Shown in pieces: positions 1 to 58,466 of a stretch of DNA of 64,000 nt. Position 1 is the stretch's first letter; each line of letters starts with the position of its first letter. The DNA is from Mariniphaga sp. (GTDB lineage Bacteria > Bacteroidota > Bacteroidia > Bacteroidales > Prolixibacteraceae), in NCBI GenBank assembly GCA_024636975.1, contig JAGXGA010000017.1:124001-188000 (forward strand), written 5' to 3'. The notes beneath the pieces are model-generated. The model was not told the DNA's origin. It ran no database searches and worked only from the letters and a program-made list of their open reading frames with translations. The position numbers and the translations under genes are program-made.

Positions 1-1056
1 TCGCAGCAATCCTGCCGATTCCATCACGCCTCCGAAAACCATTGCAGATAAAATCAGCCATACCGTATTAAGCATTCCGCTCATGCCGTAGGTGCTGAGC
101 AACTCATTCACTTTTACATCGGAGGTGGTTAATGAAATGTCGCCATACATTGCCTGAATCACAGAAACATAAGAAGCTTTTAAATAGTTTCCGGATATAC
201 CTGCAACTGCTTCTATTATTTCAGGTTGAAAAATTACTGCAAAAATACCTCCGAGTAATGTTCCTGCCAGCAGCGATGGAAGGGGAGGGACTTTCATTAT
301 GATGATTGTTAACAGGATGGCAGGCACAAGAAACAGCAAAGGACTTGTATTAAAGGTGCCACCAATAGCTGTTTTTACTGATGCCACATTGTCGAATGCA
401 CTGGCATAATCAGAGGAAAAACCTATTCCAAGGAAAATGAAAAGGGTTATGGTCATTGAGGGCACAGTTGTGTAAAACATGTACTGGATGTGAGTGAACA
501 AATCGGTACCTGCCATTGCCGGGGCCAGATTAGTTGTGTCGCTTAACGGAGAAATTTTGTCGCCAAAATAGGCTCCGCTTATAATAGCGCCTGCAACTAC
601 CGCCTCATTCATCCCCAATGCCTTACCAATGCCCAGGAGGGCAATGCCTATGGTGGCTATTGTAGACCAGGAACTTCCGGTTGCAACACTCACAATTGCA
701 CTTACAACTACCGCCGTAAACAGAAACATTTTGGGGCTGATAATATCCAGACCGTAGTATATCATTACCGGCACCACTCCGCTTAACATCCAGGTGCCTG
801 CAAGCGAACCAATTAACAGAAGGATTAATATGGAAGGCATGGCTGAACTGATGGTGCTTACAATCCTTTCCCGGATGGAAGCCCATTTAATTCCAAGCCT
901 CCAGGCTATGATTCCGGCTAATGAAGCAGAGAGCATGAGGGCGATCTGATTGGCGCCTGATAGCGTGTCATCAAACAGAAATACATTGGCTGTAAGCAGC
1001 CCAATTAGTAACATTACAGGTATCAGTGCGGTAAATAAACCGGCTTCTCTTTTCAT
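1..1056 (-). CDS. NhaC-family Na+/H+ antiporter (C-terminus beyond window)
   Basis: Reading the reverse strand from ATG at 1056 gives 352 codons with no stop before the window edge, so the C-terminus is missing. The protein is very hydrophobic, with about nine membrane segments. It contains NhaC-type patches: a GSSWSTIATIGIALLGIG stretch near residues 135-152 and GAYFGDKISPLSDTTNLAP near residues 166-185, which match the conserved ion-translocation region of NhaC antiporters. The expected role is exchange of sodium for protons across the inner membrane. The family is usually 450-500 residues, so roughly a quarter is outside the window. It is divergent from the next gene, with 186 bp between them. 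An organic-acid/amine antiporter of the same superfamily is possible. Confidence 0.85.
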   Translation of the reverse strand, partial: MKREAGLFTALIPVMLLIGLLTANVFLFDDTLSGANQIALMLSASLAGIIAWRLGIKWASIRERIVSTISSAMPSILILLLIGSLAGTWMLSGVVPVMIYYGLDIISPKMFLFTAVVVSAIVSVATGSSWSTIATIGIALLGIGKALGMNEAVVAGAIISGAYFGDKISPLSDTTNLAPAMAGTDLFTHIQYMFYTTVPSMTITLFIFLGIGFSSDYASAFDNVASVKTAIGGTFNTSPLLFLVPAILLTIIIMKVPPLPSLLAGTLLGGIFAVIFQPEIIEAVAGISGNYLKASYVSVIQAMYGDISLTTSDVKVNELLSTYGMSGMLNTVWLILSAMVFGGVMESAGLLR

Positions 1057-1242
1057 TCGGAATTTCTTGTTCTTTTAAACCGGCAAACTAATACTTTTAT
1101 GTTTAAAAACCTTACTGATGGTGCTGTTAATTGCAAAACAATTCAAAATATTGATGTTGATTTTAATTCCCTTTTAGTACAATCCCAACATTTTATCGAT
1201 ATTTGATATACAGGATAATTAATTGTTCTTATTTTCGTTTTT

Positions 1243-4200
1243 ATGAATCAAAGACTAACAATGAAGGGATTATTCCTTACTCTTATCTTTCTGCTTTATG
1301 GGATTGCTTCTGAAACGCTGGCTCAAAGAAGCAATGGCCTTACCATAGAAGGTGCTGTTACTGTTGAACAGGGTTCTGTTGATGGAGCAGTTATTCAAAT
1401 GTACCGTAACGGGCAGCGGATGGGTGATTATGGCATCGGAACCAATGGCCGGTATAAGGTGGAGCTGAATTACAACAATGATTTTGTGCTGATCTTTTCC
1501 CGTAAAGATAATTTTCCCCAAAAAATAGAGGTTGATACACATGTCCCCCGGGAAGTGCTTCAGTCAGATCCGCTTTTCCCACCATTTCCGGTTGACATAA
1601 AATTATTCACAGAAATTCCCCAAATCGACAAAACCTTTTCAGAAAATACGGTTCAGAAAATATATTACAGTAAAAATGTTGATAATTTCATTTCGGATCT
1701 TTTTTACAATGAAGCCCAGATTAAAAAGCTTATTGATCAGGCAATTTTACAATCACAACAACTTGGTAAAGAGGCAGATTATCTTGCAGGACTTACCAGG
1801 GCTGAACTGGCTGAACTCAGGAAAGAATACGATAAATTTATAAAAGAAGCTGAGAATGAATACAACAGGGAAGAGTTTCTTTCAGCCCTTGATGGATATA
1901 AAGCGGCTAATAAAATATTCCCAAAGGAACAGTATCCTAAAGACCGCATAGCTGAAATAAACGATCTATTGGGTTTGTTAATGGTAGCGGAAGAAATGGA
2001 AAAGGCTTTAGCCGACCGGTTACAGGAGCTTATTTCCAGGGGTGATTTAATGTTCGAACAAAAAAATTATGAGGAGGCAAGGTCTTCATACCAGAGAGCC
2101 CTCTCGGTCGACTCAGGCAATAACCATGCGCAGTCGCGTTTGAATGAAATAAAGGGAATTATCGACAACCAGCTAACCGGCAAGGAATATAATGCCTTAA
2201 TTGTGGCTGCAGACAATTCGTTTGATGAGTTGCTGTACGCTGAAGCACGGAACATTTATACCAAAGCGCTGGAATTAAAAAGTGGTGAAAGCTACCCGCA
2301 GCAGAGGATCAGGGAGGTTGATGAAATATTGAAACAACAGGCTTCGAATGCCGAAAAACTTGAAGGGTACAAAGAATCAATATTTCAGGCTGAATTGAAT
2401 TTCGAAAAACAGTTTTACGACAAGGCAATTTCATTTTACGAAAATGCTTTGACACATAAACCGGGAGATGAAACTGCCATTAGGAAAATAGATGAAATAA
2501 AGGCATTGATGAGCCGGCTGGCAAATCAAACCTTGTATGATAAACGGATCAAAACCGCAGATAAGGCATTTAAAAAAGAGCAGTATGATGAAGCACTGGT
2601 CGAATATGAAGAAGCTGCAAAGTTGATTCCTTCAGAGCAATATCCTCTTTCGCAAATAAAACAGATTAAAGCAGTATATGCCGAACAGGAACGTCTGGTT
2701 GCTGAAGCAGAAGCTGAGAAAACAAGGCTGGCAGCCGAAGCCGAAGCCGAAGAACAGGCACGGCTGGCAGCTCTGGAGGCTGAAAAAGAGCTACAATACA
2801 ATAAGGCTGTTTCACGAGCCGACAGCTTGTTCATGCTAAAAGAATATGAAACTTCACGAACAGCATATGAGGCAGCACTGCAGTTAAAACCTGGTGAGAG
2901 TCTGCCGGAGGCACGAATCAGTGAAATAGATGATTTGCTGGTGAAAATGGCATCTGTACAGAAGCAATATGAGGCACTTGTTTCCCGTGGAGATGAAGCT
3001 TTCAACAAGGATTCATTTGAAGGAGCAAAAGCAGCCTTCAGCGAAGCAATGCAGATAATGCCTGAGGAAGTCTATCCACAGGAGAAGCTCGCACAGATCG
3101 ATTCCATAGTGGAAGCACGGGAGCGGCTGGTTGCTGAAGCAGAGGCAGAAAAACTCAGGTTGGTTGCTGAGGCGGAAGCAGCCGAGCTTGCCCGGTTGTC
3201 AGCTATAGAGGCGGAGAAAGAGCGGCAGTACAATCAAGCGGTTTCACGTGCCGACAGCCTGTTCCAACTCAATGAATATGAAAGTTCCAAAACAGCATAT
3301 GAGACTACTTTGCAGTTAAAACCTGAAGAGGATATACCGGAACAACGTATTAATGAAATAGTTGAACTGCTAGTTAAGCTTGCTGAAGCACAGTCTGCTT
3401 ATGATGCTGCTGTAGCTCGTGGCAACGAGGCATTAAGTCAGGAATCATTTGAGGTGGACGATAATGCAATTAGACAGGAATCACTCGAAATAGCAAAAGC
3501 AGCATTTAAGGAAGCACAGCAAGCCAAACCTGAAGAGAGTTACCCACAGGAGATGTTGGGTAGGATTGATTCTTTGGAAGCAGCCTGGCAAGCCCGGTTG
3601 TTAGCTTTGGAAGCAGCCGAACAAGCTCGTCTGTCAGCATTGGAAGCAGAAAAAGAAAAGAAGTATAACCAGGCAGTTCACCGTGCCGACAGTCTGTTTG
3701 TCATGAAAGAGTATGAGAATTCACTTGTTGCTTACAGGACAGCCCAGGAGGTAAAACCGGAAGAGAACCTGCCGGAGCAGCGGATAAATGAAATAAATAA
3801 ACTTATTGGGCAGATGGCTGCAGCACAGCAGGCATATGATGCAGCTATTGCAAAGGGTGATGATACATTCAAAAATGAATCCTATGAAGAGGCAAAGGCG
3901 GCCTTTTTGGAAGCACAGAAAGTAAAACCTGAGGAGAATTATCCAAAGGAGATGCTGGCACAGATTGATTCTCTAGTAGTGGTCCGCGAGCAACTGGCTG
4001 CTGAGGCAGAAGCAGAAAGATTACGTTTGGCTGCCGAAGCTGAAGCAGCTGAACTTGCCAGGCTGGCAGCAATAGAGGCTGAAAAGGAGCAACAGTTTGC
4101 CCGGGCAGTTTCGCGTGCCGATAGTCTGTTTAATCTGAATGAATATGAAAGCTCCCGATCAGCATATCAGATGGCGTTGCAGGTGAATGGAGATGCAGCG

Positions 4201-54642: not shown

Positions 54643-54691
54643 ATATGGATCGGGATGCTCTAACCCTTTTAGCTATCGTTAGCGATCATAG
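54643..54691 (-). repeat. tRNA/GIY-YIG-derived 49-bp footprint
   Basis: The 49-bp segment matches 57965-58013 at about 42 of 49 positions by my count, in the same orientation. It holds the tRNA-like core GGGTTAGAGCATCCCGATCC on the reverse strand and the end of the GIY-YIG frame (TATGATCGC). It directly abuts the stop of the AsmA-like gene. The two direct copies bracket 3.3 kb. Confidence 0.7.
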
Positions 54692-54693
54692 AC

Positions 54694-57417
54694 TTAAGTA
54701 TCAATGATGGAAAGGGGGAATCCCATCACTTCAACAAAACCTGCCATCACCGAATTTAGATAATGTTCAATAAAATCTTCTTCCTCTTCATTTTCTCTTT
54801 CGAATTTTACGGTTTCCGGTTTCTCACTTTTACCATCAGCTATATCTTCATCCAAAACAAGTGCATTAGCCAGGTATGACCCGATGGTATTCAAAAAGCC
54901 ATCCGTTTCAGGCGTTTCAGCCTCGCTCAATTGAATATTGAGATTTTCATAACTCATTCCAAATACTCCTTGGGCCGCACCATTGCTTGTTTCAAAATCC
55001 CACAGTAGTTTGTAAATAGTGCCGCTCTCTATTCCAAATCTTGTTGTATATTCCGTATAATCATTTAATTTGGTCAGGTCCAGGGTATCCAGTCTTCCTG
55101 AAACAATTACAGGTTGATTTGTGTCAGGCATTGGAATTATTACCTGCATCTCAAGCAAGCCTGCGCCCATAAGTCTTGTGCTGAATTTTAATGATGTTTC
55201 AGGGATATTTTTCAAAATGCTCTGGCTGTTAGACAAGTTCTTTAGACTAACATTCAGTTTATCAGCAGTAAATACACCGGGCTCCTCTCCATCTTCAGCC
55301 ATTTCTTCATAAGTTAATGACCCGTTGGTAAGGTTGAATTCGCCAACGTAAAATGGCATTCCGATATCCATGATCATTGCTTGCGGAGTTGGAAATGCTT
55401 CATCATCAGACTCTTCCTCGGGATAATTGTTGTTTTTGTAGACATAAGTTTCCAGTCCTTCAAGTAAAATCCGGCTGGCAAACAAGCCACTACCTTTTAT
55501 AATATCCTGAAACTCCAGGTTACTTAGTAAAAAACGATTTCCTCTGACTGTATACACCTGATTTGATTCAGGTGCCTCAAGTAACTGTTTATAGTTATTG
55601 TTGAATGAGTAGGAGAAGTTGTTGATACTAAAGAACTTTTCTCTGGTACTCATTTTTAGCAAGGCTAATGTTGCCTTATAAATATTATCAGGCATGGAAT
55701 AATTGATGTTCTCCAGATGTATAGCTATGTCATCGGCATGAAAAACTCTTCCTCCGGCAAATGCATTCCCTTTAGCAATATTCATATCCGAAACCTGCAC
55801 ATATACTACAGGAAGGCGGATATCCTGACGTTGTTCACCAAATCCTTCTACTTCCACATCTCCGTTAATAAAAGCAACCTTACGAATTGAAAGCTTGGTC
55901 AAATAATCACTTATAAAAGGATATAAACTTTCGATTTCATCGGATTCTTCTGTATCATTACCCTGACTCCTGGCCATGCTCGCGTGAATGGTTGGATTGT
56001 TGATTGCTATGCTGTCTATTTTCAACGCTTTAGTGGTTAATTCAGTAACATCGAGCTGGCTCACAAGCAACTCATGAAGGTTTAAGTGAATTAATTTTTC
56101 ACTGGATTCATTTTGCAAAGGTTTTACCGAAAGGTCATTTAGCTCAATACTTCCTTTTCCGTTATTAATCTCAATAATAAAATCATTAAGGTTTATCAGG
56201 TAATTGGCAACATCATTAATTTTCATTCCATGAACTGAACTTTTAAAATGCTCAGCGTGCAAAAATCTGTTGTCAGAAAAAGCTGGCATACTATCCAGCC
56301 TGAAGTTGCTGGATTTCAGGTTAAAGCTTTCTACTACTAATTTATAATTTTGATTATAGCTAAGATTTTGTAAATCAATTTCCTCTAAGTTGATTTGATG
56401 CACAAAATCAGGAAGAGATTCTCCAAGACTAAAAGTGGATAAGTCAATCGATCTGTTGTTTTGGTTTCCAGGTTCTTCAGATTCAAGTTCTTCTTCTGTA
56501 TCCAGGTAGGTAAAAATATTCAGGTTATGCAAAACCAAATTACGAATATTGGCTATACTGTCTGTTCGTAAAGCATTAAGCTCAATATCATTTAATTCAA
56601 ACTTGCTGTACCCTGAAAAAATCAGTGTATCTTTTATTGTGTTTCCATTGTTTAAAAACACCATATTTTCTGATAGCAGACTCAAATCTTCTTCCCGGGT
56701 GTCAATATATACAAGGTCAAAATCCAGATTCCAATCTACATTTCCGGAACGTTTGATTTCAATATCTTTACCTTCCAAATCAATCTGTGAGGCGTAGAAG
56801 GCACGTGTATCAGCAAATACTTTGTCGGCATCTATCAAAATATCATCACTGTTAAGGTTGAACTCACTGGCCGAGAATAAAAGTGTATCTGCACTTTCTA
56901 CATTTATCAGCGTCAGATCAATCTGGTTGAATCTCAGGTCTTTCAGCCGGATTCTGTCAATGTGCTCCTTTAAGTCAGGATAAATATTAAGTTGAGTCCA
57001 TGTAAAAGGTTTTGTTTCCTCGTCGTCTCCCTCAGTCCTAACCCTCATCTCCGTCCTGATATTCAGAAGTGAAATACGGTCGATATAAATTTCATTTGTA
57101 AGCAAAAATTTGAGCCAGGAGATTCCTTCAGCGGATATTTCACCTGCTTCCATATCAACCACAGGTGCTTCTCCCTCTCTTGCTTGTGAGGTATCGGTTT
57201 GCAGTATTATGCCTTCCAGAATGATATTGCCCGAAAACAATGAAATATTGACATCCTCCAGATTTAATGTGTACTGGCTTTCGTCCGCCTCATTAACTTG
57301 CCGCTCAATTATATTCTTTGCAATTGGATCTATGGCTATACCTATTATCAGGAGCAACAGTAAAACCACCCCAAAAAAATACATAGAAAATTTCCCGATC
57401 TTCTTTAACACTTTCAT
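54694..57417 (-). CDS. AsmA/DUF748-like giant inner-membrane-anchored protein
   Basis: The 907-residue protein begins with one TM helix (FSMYFFGVVLLLLLIIGIAI). A long beta-rich periplasmic region then repeats strands like LEDVNISLFSGNIILEG (near 50), VNIRTEMRVR, LRFNQIDLTLINVES and, near the C-terminus, VSGRLDTLDLTKLND and GIESGTIYKLLWDFETS, as in AsmA/TamB-type lipid-transfer proteins. Its C-terminus ends NSVMAGFVEVMGFPLSIIDT. It likely acts in outer-membrane lipid or protein transport. There is no operon partner. It lies between two tRNA-derived 49-bp direct repeats, so it could be part of an inserted segment. Confidence 0.8.
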   Translation of the reverse strand: MKVLKKIGKFSMYFFGVVLLLLLIIGIAIDPIAKNIIERQVNEADESQYTLNLEDVNISLFSGNIILEGIILQTDTSQAREGEAPVVDMEAGEISAEGISWLKFLLTNEIYIDRISLLNIRTEMRVRTEGDDEETKPFTWTQLNIYPDLKEHIDRIRLKDLRFNQIDLTLINVESADTLLFSASEFNLNSDDILIDADKVFADTRAFYASQIDLEGKDIEIKRSGNVDWNLDFDLVYIDTREEDLSLLSENMVFLNNGNTIKDTLIFSGYSKFELNDIELNALRTDSIANIRNLVLHNLNIFTYLDTEEELESEEPGNQNNRSIDLSTFSLGESLPDFVHQINLEEIDLQNLSYNQNYKLVVESFNLKSSNFRLDSMPAFSDNRFLHAEHFKSSVHGMKINDVANYLINLNDFIIEINNGKGSIELNDLSVKPLQNESSEKLIHLNLHELLVSQLDVTELTTKALKIDSIAINNPTIHASMARSQGNDTEESDEIESLYPFISDYLTKLSIRKVAFINGDVEVEGFGEQRQDIRLPVVYVQVSDMNIAKGNAFAGGRVFHADDIAIHLENINYSMPDNIYKATLALLKMSTREKFFSINNFSYSFNNNYKQLLEAPESNQVYTVRGNRFLLSNLEFQDIIKGSGLFASRILLEGLETYVYKNNNYPEEESDDEAFPTPQAMIMDIGMPFYVGEFNLTNGSLTYEEMAEDGEEPGVFTADKLNVSLKNLSNSQSILKNIPETSLKFSTRLMGAGLLEMQVIIPMPDTNQPVIVSGRLDTLDLTKLNDYTEYTTRFGIESGTIYKLLWDFETSNGAAQGVFGMSYENLNIQLSEAETPETDGFLNTIGSYLANALVLDEDIADGKSEKPETVKFERENEEEEDFIEHYLNSVMAGFVEVMGFPLSIIDT

Positions 57418-57599
57418 CAGTAAATAATTTTGTTTTTAATGGACTAATGAATCCACATGTGTTTGTAAACCGACTTTTCTGGCTTGCCTTTACAAGTACT
57501 GATGCCAATCACTGTAACATACCCTCATGTTTATTGTTTACTTATCTATAATAGCAGTAAAGGGGGTATCTCAATAGTGTTGGGACATATTTTCCTGCA

Positions 57600-57875
57600 A
57601 TACATAATGGAAAAGGAAAATCAAATAAAGTAAGTAGTAATAAATTCCGATTTAAAGCAAACGATGCTTTACTGGTAAAACTGCGGGTTTATTTGCATAA
57701 GGTGGTGCAACCAAAGTTTGATGGAATTTGCTCAACTGATATCTGGGTATTAAGAGCTAAAGAAGGATTTTCTCAGGACTTTCTGTTACCGGTTACCATA
57801 ACTATCGCTTTAGCACAAAAGGAATTTTATTCATTAAAAGAAAATAAAACCGTGTACCTTATTTGTACTGAATAA
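57600..57875 (+). pseudogene. Fragment of a type I restriction specificity subunit (HsdS)
   Basis: One forward frame reads SSNKFRFKANDALLVKLR, then VYLHKVVQPKFDGICSTDIW and VLRAKEGFSQDFLLPV before a stop at 57873-57875. It matches the conserved HsdS pattern KYRFKxGDxLxGKLRxYLxK followed by DGICSTDxxVLRxKxG. The first part is not preceded by a start, and a neighbouring frame (LGHIF) suggests an upstream frameshift. Only part of one target-recognition domain remains; no hsdM or hsdR is present. The listed ORF (TTG at 57693) covers only the tail. Confidence 0.7.
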
Positions 57876-57880
57876 AAACA

Positions 57881-57914
57881 AAAAACCTAATAACTTTTTA
57901 GTTGTCAGGTTTTT
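57881..57914. terminator. Terminator-like hairpin
   Basis: AAAAACCT (57881-57888) pairs with AGGTTTTT (57907-57914); inner bases partly pair. T runs flank it, so it could end either the HsdS fragment or the reverse-strand tRNA-like transcript. Confidence 0.4.
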
Positions 57915-57929
57915 GTATGCTTCAATCCG

Positions 57930-57992
57930 TAGCGGGAGGTGGGCTTGAACCGCCGACCTTCCTGATATGGATCGGGACGCTCTAACCCATTG
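57930..57992 (-). pseudogene. tRNA-like fragment (D-arm to 3' end) downstream of GIY-YIG frame
   Basis: On the reverse strand: GGGTTAGAGCG, then an altered anticodon arm TCCCGATCCATATCAGGA (8-nt loop, one stem mismatch), AGGTC, a T-arm GGCGG-TTCAAGC-CCACC (one mismatch) and acceptor-like TCCCGCTA. The D-arm and T-arm wording parallels the intact tRNA-Met at 58305-58378. The 5' acceptor strand is absent, and the anticodon loop has the wrong size. It is not a functional tRNA. Confidence 0.75.
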
Positions 57993-58242
57993 AGTTATTT
58001 TTTGCGATCATAGATTCGATAACTGTTCTGCTTTTCAACCGCTTTAAGAAATTCTCAAATTTCAACGCCTCTGTTTTGGAATTAAACTCCTTCGTCTATA
58101 CTACTTTCCATGGCCTGCCCGCTTTGGTGGATGGAGTAACTCCGGCATTATGTCTTAAAAGTCGTTTTTCGGTATCAGCAGAACTGCCGATATAGTAGCG
58201 GTCTTTGGAGACGCTGTATAGAATGTAAACGTAGTGTTTCAT
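57982..58242 (-). pseudogene. GIY-YIG endonuclease with in-frame stop
   Basis: Reading from ATG 58242 gives MKHYVYILYSVSKDRYYIGS, then SADTEKRLLRHNAGVTPSTK and AGRPWKVV, a TAG codon at 58098-58096, and in the same frame TKEFNSKTEALKFENFLKRL and KSRTVIESMIAKNNSMG before the stop at 57984. The YVYIL...YYIGSS core, R30-region and Glu-containing KTEALKFENFLKRLK helix are the URI-type GIY-YIG nuclease. The amber stands where relatives have Tyr (VVYT). The real stop lies inside the following tRNA-like fragment. The protein is either broken or read through. Confidence 0.8.
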
Positions 58243-58261
58243 AGGTTAGGATTTTTTTTAA

Positions 58262-58296
58262 TAAAAAAAGGGGAAGTAAAAAATATTTACTTCCCC
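58262..58296 (-). terminator. Terminator of tRNA-Met
   Basis: Perfect 11-bp stem GGGGAAGTAAA / TTTACTTCCCC, followed on the reverse strand by seven T, starts 8 bp after the tRNA 3' end. Confidence 0.8.
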
Positions 58297-58304
58297 TCTA
58301 TCCG

Positions 58305-58378
58305 TAGCGAGAGGCGGGCTTGAACCGCCGACCTCGTGATTATGAATCACGCGCTCTAACCAGCTGAGCTACCTCGCC
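58305..58378 (-). tRNA. tRNA-Met (CAT), elongator type
   Basis: The reverse strand folds into a complete 74-nt cloverleaf: acceptor GGCGAGG/TCTCGCT (two G-T wobbles), D-arm GCTC..GAGC with AGCTGGTT loop, anticodon stem GTGAT/ATCAC around TTCATAA (anticodon CAT), variable GAGGTC and T-arm GGCGG-TTCAAGC-CCGCC, discriminator A. CCA is not encoded. The G1 and sequence fit elongator Met; tRNA-Ile2 (CAT, lysidine) cannot be excluded. Confidence 0.9.
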
Positions 58379-58415
58379 TTTTATCTTCTTTTATTTCATG
58401 GTATACTTTTGCTTC

Positions 58416-58466
58416 CGACCTTCCCGATAGTGATCGGGACGCTCTAACCAGCTGAGCTACCTCGCC
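58416..58466 (-). pseudogene. Partial tRNA-Met copy with altered anticodon arm
   Basis: The reverse strand begins with 27 bases identical to the intact tRNA-Met (GGCGAGGTAGCTCAGCTGGT..TAGAGCG). It then continues with TCCCGATCACTATCGGGA instead of the Met anticodon arm, followed by AGGTCGG. The T-arm and 3' acceptor are missing. The replaced arm forms a perfect 6-bp hairpin or an 8-nt-loop stem. Confidence 0.8.

Follow-up and report, generated by a model that had tools for sequence, protein, structure and literature searches.

GIY-YIG nuclease genes beside tRNA genes and palindrome-bearing tRNA half-copies in Mariniphaga and other Bacteroidota

What places the gene of a small nuclease among broken copies of a transfer RNA (tRNA), and why is the anticodon arm of those copies replaced by a palindrome? 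The question is raised by a locus in Mariniphaga sp. (Bacteroidota), where a tRNA-Met gene, two partial copies of it and the remnant of a GIY-YIG nuclease gene lie together within a 64,000-nucleotide stretch of contig JAGXGA010000017.1 (positions 124,001 to 188,000), here called the window. This locus is best read as a degraded representative of a family of tiny, selfish GIY-YIG elements that is widespread at structured-RNA genes. Its features, in window coordinates, are as follows.

58440..58466, reverse strand: copy A, the left scar, a tRNA-Met 5' half with 27 nt identical (local alignment)
58422..58439, reverse strand: palindrome A, TCCCGAT-n4-ATCGGGA, replacing the anticodon arm of copy A (pattern scan, 0 mismatches)
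58304..58378, reverse strand: intact tRNA-Met (anticodon CAT), the kept copy (ARAGORN; Rfam RF00005, 66.5 bits)
57982..58242, reverse strand: GIY-YIG nuclease gene remnant (translation; Pfam PF01541, 59 bits, one TAG inside)
57960..57977, reverse strand: palindrome B, replacing the anticodon arm of copy B (pattern scan, one mismatch)
57929..57987, reverse strand: copy B, the right scar, tRNA-Met from the D-arm to the 3' end, without the 5' acceptor strand (local alignment)
54643..54692, reverse strand: relic, the apparent 3' end of a second element copy (blastn 1.9e-9, 86%; alignment to the copy B region)

The tRNA-Met locus of the window

A preliminary description of this DNA had listed four tRNA-Met-related segments on the reverse strand, and three of them stand: the intact gene, called at 58304-58378 by ARAGORN and Rfam, and copies A and B, a 5' half and a D-arm to 3' half with replaced anticodon arms, which align to it with scores of 27 and 30, whereas none of 2000 random window stretches scored above 10. 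Copy A stands between the locus's conserved 5' flank and the intact gene, upstream of the latter, and its 27-nt tRNA 5' half is followed directly by a perfect palindrome, TCCCGATCACTATCGGGA. The exchange of the anticodon arm is nearly one for one in both copies, with 18 nt in place of 17 nt. With two or fewer mismatches allowed, the palindrome pattern is found twice in the window, where 0.14 matches are expected; one of 100 shuffles also gave two.

The nuclease gene is dead, as its translation is interrupted by an in-frame TAG at codon 49 (58096-58098), which rules out an open GIY-YIG frame. The next stop of the frame, a TAG at 57982-57984, does fall within a tRNA copy as had been claimed, in the D-loop of copy B.

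The fourth segment, at 54643-54692, contains the last GIY-YIG codons, a bit of the D-arm and half of the palindrome. The shared codons noted earlier are borne out by a 50-nt alignment to the copy B region with a score of 29, where the random maximum is 12. A tRNA copy was rejected for this footprint, the match to the tRNA being just 9 nt, which was equalled by 21 of 2000 random stretches and is at chance level. Judged by these alignments, what the footprint preserves is the end of the element and not a tRNA. Copy B and its gene, used as queries against the window's own genome, gave four matches, all inside the window, and a second intact copy of this tRNA-Met was not found among the 17 of 25 first-look candidates that were scored.

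Presence of the element at this locus is patchy. In two genomes of the same genus, L030 and L035, the tRNA-Met locus is empty, with neither gene nor palindrome; G295, also of this genus, has no match to copy B and its gene, so that its tRNA-Met locus was not seen. The gene is present at the same locus in L029, with scars on both sides, and in L031, with the left scar and a stretch that ends in the gene, while L040, L041 and L042, read partly by eye, have the left scar only and no gene. The sequence traits of a homing endonuclease, namely a gene by its presumed target, patchy presence and empty sites, are all seen.

GIY-YIG genes at tRNA genes across Bacteroidota

Relatives were collected at a threshold of 1e-8 with a profile, A1, built from four proteins that are all tRNA-linked and hence a biased seed. 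It matches 146 of 247 sampled Bacteroidota genomes, and the window remnant is the top match of its own genome. The locus set consists of the first 100 merged places among the profile matches listed, taken from the other genomes. An intact tRNA on the same strand lies within 800 bp upstream of the gene in 72 of these loci and only downstream, within 300 bp, in 16. The remaining 12 have neither; three are in the RNase P RNA gene (rnpB), three start less than 150 bp from a contig end, and several show a half-tRNA by eye. Among the 89 loci having 500 bp on each side, a tRNA lies within 500 bp of the gene on the same strand in 80 and on the opposite strand in none, and the association of tRNA-like segments with GIY-YIG genes elsewhere, which had been proposed as a check, is thus present. 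In 57 of the 100 loci the gene is enclosed by a direct repeat that overlaps the tRNA, and in 32 of the 57 this repeat reaches at least 20 bp beyond the tRNA 3' end.

The gene is on the strand of the tRNA, one intact tRNA is kept beside it, and in many loci a half-copy of the tRNA stands on the gene's other side, a 3' half if the gene is downstream and a 5' half if it is upstream. In the first arrangement (type 1) the order is intact tRNA, its 3' flank, GIY-YIG gene, D-arm bit, palindrome and tRNA 3' half, and the nuclease stop codon lies within the D-loop of the tRNA copy at L018 and L022 as it does in the window. In the second (type 2), a 5' half of the tRNA whose loops hold palindromes is followed by the GIY-YIG gene and then by the intact tRNA. 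In many half-copies a palindrome replaces or breaks up one stem-loop, and units may be tandem. By ad hoc script filters, which probably also list some terminators or natural arms, 56 of 72 type 1 loci (tRNA upstream) and 10 of 13 type 2 loci (tRNA downstream) were scored as carrying a palindrome foreign to the native tRNA. Palindrome-bearing half-copies are found in many genomes, and the replaced arm is not peculiar to this one.

Which arm is replaced goes with the tRNA among 33 loci viewed in print: the anticodon arm in Pro, Ala and most Val loci, the T-arm in Asp, the T-loop in two Asn loci, and the D-loop or T-loop in Ser, with Gly mixed; a clear palindrome is not visible in a few of them, for example L206, L266 and L278. 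The earlier proposal of an element that is tied to tRNA genes and leaves tRNA-like scars therefore holds and recurs in many genomes, whereas two of its parts do not: the anticodon arm is not a fixed target, and the functional tRNA is left unchanged, it being the spare half-copy that is altered.

In 24 of the 100 loci there are at least two GIY-YIG matches separated by 250 bp or more, and in seven there are at least three; tandem units measure ~0.3-0.4 kb. This length bears on a conventional explanation, an integrative element with the tRNA as its attachment site that has been reduced to one gene; a whole tRNA at one end and part of it at the other do resemble a pair of att sites. Units of this size would be too short to hold an integrase beside the nuclease, and the half-copies are either 5' or 3', and we regard such an origin as most improbable. 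Plain tandem duplication of a tRNA followed by decay, with palindromes selected to stop the spare half from misfolding or from recombining with the working tRNA, would account for palindrome-bearing half-copies that lie near an intact tRNA with no GIY-YIG gene between (L023, L137, L318), yet it leaves unexplained the nuclease gene's frequent presence, strand and target fidelity, as well as the gene found inside rnpB without duplication, and appears improbable. A further array was found at L359 (G379:C34:5991-10948), where about 990-3760 hold eight tandem GIY-YIG genes at a spacing of ~364 bp. Its start, the portion that was read, shows palindromes and sequence resembling a tRNA 3' end, and no intact tRNA was called in the fetched stretch. 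At L318, about 400-630, a single intact tRNA-Ala is accompanied by three tandem palindrome-bearing pseudo-copies.

The nucleases appear to be faithful to their tRNAs. On a quick maximum-likelihood tree of 100 proteins, 88 of them labelled with a tRNA, the tRNA isoacceptor changes 34 times, compared with a mean of 66 and a minimum of 60 in 200 shuffles, and with a mean of 61 and a minimum of 56 when labels are shuffled within host families only; host family changes 42 times versus 57. A tRNA-Pro clade has members from five host families, and a Ser(GGA) clade from four. The nuclease tree thus tends to follow tRNA identity across host families, as would be expected of a target-faithful homing-type gene. 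The residues Y, Y-x-G, R, H and E are catalytic in the GIY-YIG superfamily, and the corresponding Y, Y, G, R, H and E are kept in 95 to 98 of the 100 proteins. Among the 30 closest pairs, the ratio of nonsynonymous to synonymous substitution (dN/dS) is 0.07-0.32 in 16 of the 17 with finite dS and 0.51 in the other; dS is saturated in 13 pairs and near saturation in several others. Given the near-invariant catalytic positions and the low dN/dS, the gene looks selectively maintained where it is intact.

This tRNA link does not extend to all GIY-YIG genes, a possibility ruled out by 40 other PF01541 places of the same phylum, of which 7 have a same-strand tRNA and none an opposite-strand one. These places were high-listed ones outside the 100-locus set, not a random draw, and gene positions were set by hand in three. 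In the window's own genome PF01541 has 8 places above the curated cut-off, and 2 of the 7 non-UvrC genes lie by tRNA sequence. The link is therefore a subfamily trait. A GIY-YIG gene on contig C38 of the own genome has a 3' half of another CAT tRNA on either side, and the second of these halves carries TTCCGATAGCTATCGGAA in its anticodon loop. A direct repeat spans the gene at 27 of the 40 other places (L324-L363), though only 7 are by a tRNA.

Palindromes and the RNase P RNA gene

The palindrome-bearing half-copies were also sought without reference to the nuclease, by a pattern of a palindrome followed by a T-arm. It matches 12 times in 9 of 295 genomes of the order, with 0 matches in a backward control; the window's own genome gives no exact match because copy B has a mismatch and copy A has no T-arm. 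In a species-genome collection the scan found at least 118 stretches. Among the 118 listed, 42 have a same-strand GIY-YIG gene just upstream, 26 have an intact tRNA nearby without such a gene, 7 are called by the tRNA finder itself and 43 have neither tRNA nor GIY-YIG gene, many of these last being chance matches by a rough hand estimate; an opposite-strand GIY-YIG gene was near none of 149 matches among those listed. The 42 GIY-YIG-linked stretches comprise 35 from Bacteroidota, two from Parcubacteria, one each from Uhrbacteria, Chloroflexota and Planctomycetota, and two without a phylum. The arrangement seen in the window is, as far as these genomes tell, largely confirmed as real and far more general than one genome. 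At L096 (3965-5532, Niabella hibiscisoli) eight such matches occur, seven of them spaced ~165 bp, with a GIY-YIG gene upstream of at least one.

These counts bear on whether the palindromes belong to the element at all. They may instead be unrelated dispersed repeats of the REP or dRS3 kind that settle in any neutral hairpin, with half-copies as neutral ground and the GIY-YIG gene as a bystander. TCCCGATN4ATCGGGA occurs in 29 of 60 relatives, with up to 58 copies per genome and zero control matches, and 17 of 20 fetched regions from four genomes have no tRNA copy at the palindrome; the 26 stretches with an intact tRNA and no GIY-YIG gene just upstream likewise suit this explanation. Set against it, 2 of the 7 places in the own genome that carry this palindrome with at most one mismatch are the window half-copies, four loci of genome G514 have different palindromes, and the GIY-YIG genes just upstream of the 42 stretches are on the same strand, with the opposite strand unrepresented. 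The palindrome type also tracks the tRNA and nuclease type across host families, as TGGCGC..GCGCCA is found in 5 of the 7 tRNA-Pro loci, out of 9, at which a palindrome was scored and in 0 of 71 others (p 1e-6). On balance we consider dispersed repeats with a bystander gene unlikely. In genome G312 (L311-L317) TCCCGATN4ATCGGGA forms part of a longer dispersed repeat, GACAGCCTG-palindrome-GCAAAGGATAT, found at several places.

The gene is housed differently at rnpB. In three genomes of one genus (L301, L302 and L303; also L292, L271 and L270), Rfam places RNase P RNA at the gene's end, and the 5' strands of P1 and P2 upstream of the open reading frame (ORF) pair with their 3' strands downstream, with 8 to 10 exact pairs in P1. 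This pairing across the ORF, a GIY-YIG frame of 86 codons, positions it in the P3 loop. The exact complementary runs that bound it are 19 nt long in two genomes and 24 nt in the third, and the P3 arms of occupied genes have species-specific sequence with complementarity kept. A single rnpB match is present in every one of 8 genomes of the genus; 3 of the 8 are occupied by the GIY-YIG ORF, and the other 5 are empty sites, with the P3 region free of it. Only at rnpB were palindromes seen as inverted repeats around the gene, and this was dropped as a general reading; the rnpB stem as a dispersed palindrome was likewise rejected, its exact pattern being found in 0 of the 8 genomes.

The closest solved structures by sequence are the UPF0213 proteins 1zg2 and 1ywl (1.8e-11 and 6.4e-10), followed by SLX1 (1.7e-5), a structure-specific nuclease. 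Relatives of this kind suit a stem-loop target; to our knowledge neither UPF0213 nor SLX1 has been linked to tRNA. A paper of 2025 reportedly describes Ssn proteins, site-specific single-strand GIY-YIG nucleases associated with NTS/dRS3-type palindromic repeats of the CCC..GGG kind, and the present elements would be alike in pairing a small GIY-YIG protein with a palindromic repeat. We know of no tRNA half-copies or RNA-gene insertions reported for Ssn. The palindrome could then be the cognate site of an Ssn-type nuclease, with movement or amplification passing through single-stranded hairpins, and tRNA genes would be the targets because each of their single strands can form stem-loops. Such a mode would fit the tracking of palindrome type with tRNA and nuclease type, the swaps of stem-loop for stem-loop in tRNA arms and RNase P P3, and the relatedness to UPF0213 and SLX1. 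It fits poorly with an rnpB stem whose exact pattern is dispersed in none of the 8 genomes; it is a lead, and we hold it to be somewhat doubtful.

A broader proposal is that of a new class of minimal mobile element whose single structure-recognising GIY-YIG nuclease swaps the stem-loops of RNA genes (tRNA D, anticodon and T arms; RNase P P3) for its own palindromic stem-loop, the host RNA staying functional either through a retained tRNA copy or because the gene is housed in the new stem-loop. This is offered tentatively, as a possibility that we consider less probable than its contrary.

Probable homing-like genes at structured-RNA genes

We consider it fairly probable that these are selfish, homing-like GIY-YIG genes resident at structured-RNA genes, usually tRNA, and closest to SegB of phages. 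SegB is a free-standing GIY-YIG homing endonuclease of T4-like phages that cleaves inside tRNA genes, leads to recombination, drives tandem repeats of a tRNA with a C-terminally truncated segB and favours no tRNA isotype (PMC13096335). A GIY-YIG gene near tRNAs and tandem tRNA-nuclease units are common to both, whereas the present genes are chromosomal, are faithful to tRNA type and come with a half-tRNA that holds a foreign palindrome, SegB being a phage gene; the main text on SegB nowhere contains the string 'palindrom' (PMC13096335). The PHROGs phage families gave 0 matches at 0.001 for both of two proteins searched. All NCBIfam matches were below cut-off, TIGR01453 (group I intron endonuclease) reaching 19.9 and 22.1 bits versus 56.05 and a third protein having no match, and no intron family reached its Rfam gathering score in 20 loci scanned. 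In the open-licence literature, judged by titles and the start of abstracts, no description was found of chromosomal GIY-YIG genes of bacteria that are accompanied by half-tRNAs or that lie within rnpB.

REP palindromes with RAYT transposases provide a second parallel, in which short dispersed palindromes are presumed to be mobilised by one small nuclease-like gene; the present elements differ in having a GIY-YIG protein in place of a tyrosine transposase and in targeting tRNA. Genes in the loop of a structured RNA are familiar from intervening sequences with ORFs in ribosomal RNA and from group I introns with GIY-YIG genes. The rnpB case resembles both, whereas at tRNAs the functional copy is uninterrupted. 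Free-standing homing-like GIY-YIG genes being known, the palindrome swap and residence in rnpB would be the new features.

By analogy with SegB, the nuclease would recognise and break its own tRNA gene, and repair between tRNA copies would insert or amplify the gene, duplicating part of the tRNA along with it, while selection would keep one tRNA intact. The palindrome may be the cognate or immunising site of the nuclease, or a repair scar, and would render the spare copy uncuttable and non-functional. The preliminary description had the nuclease driving the element, and this may be so.

A number of findings weigh against the homing-like reading. If the nuclease cuts tRNA DNA, the intact tRNA beside the gene is also a target, and with the donor itself open to cleavage the model needs tolerance or some form of protection. 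The survey began from a seed of four tRNA-linked proteins, the tRNA link is confined to minorities of the other PF01541 places and of the own-genome genes counted above, 10 of the 100 places have an in-frame stop in the GIY-YIG gene (manual count in the profile A1 listing), and in L033, a relative of the window that belongs to neither locus set, the tRNA-Met and a GIY-YIG gene are on opposite strands, separated by 493 bp. Target fidelity would also follow from long vertical residence at each tRNA; the remaining Pro and Ser loci fall in other parts of the tree, so that a tRNA type does not always form a single clade, and the protein is too short to resolve many of the forks. In the Pro test the nuclease lineage and the tRNA type are confounded and inseparable as determinants of palindrome type. 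Palindromes are also found at places away from both tRNAs and GIY-YIG genes. When 99 of the 100 loci were scored with 40 approximate dinucleotide shuffles each and a plain-shuffle fallback, the best hairpin reached p<=0.05 in no more than 35 of 72, 7 of 12 and 5 of 15 loci; short arms are common by chance, which explains why few hairpins are significant.

If the homing-like reading is true, a large share of the small genes annotated 'GIY-YIG family' in Bacteroidota would be selfish genes resident at tRNA genes, and they would provide a source for the tRNA half-copies and stem-loop palindromes of these genomes. Nuclease lineages matched to tRNA type and palindrome would supply ready enzyme-target pairs for biochemistry. 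A single-copy rnpB that carries a nuclease gene in its P3 loop would, in turn, make the tolerance and maturation of that RNA directly testable.

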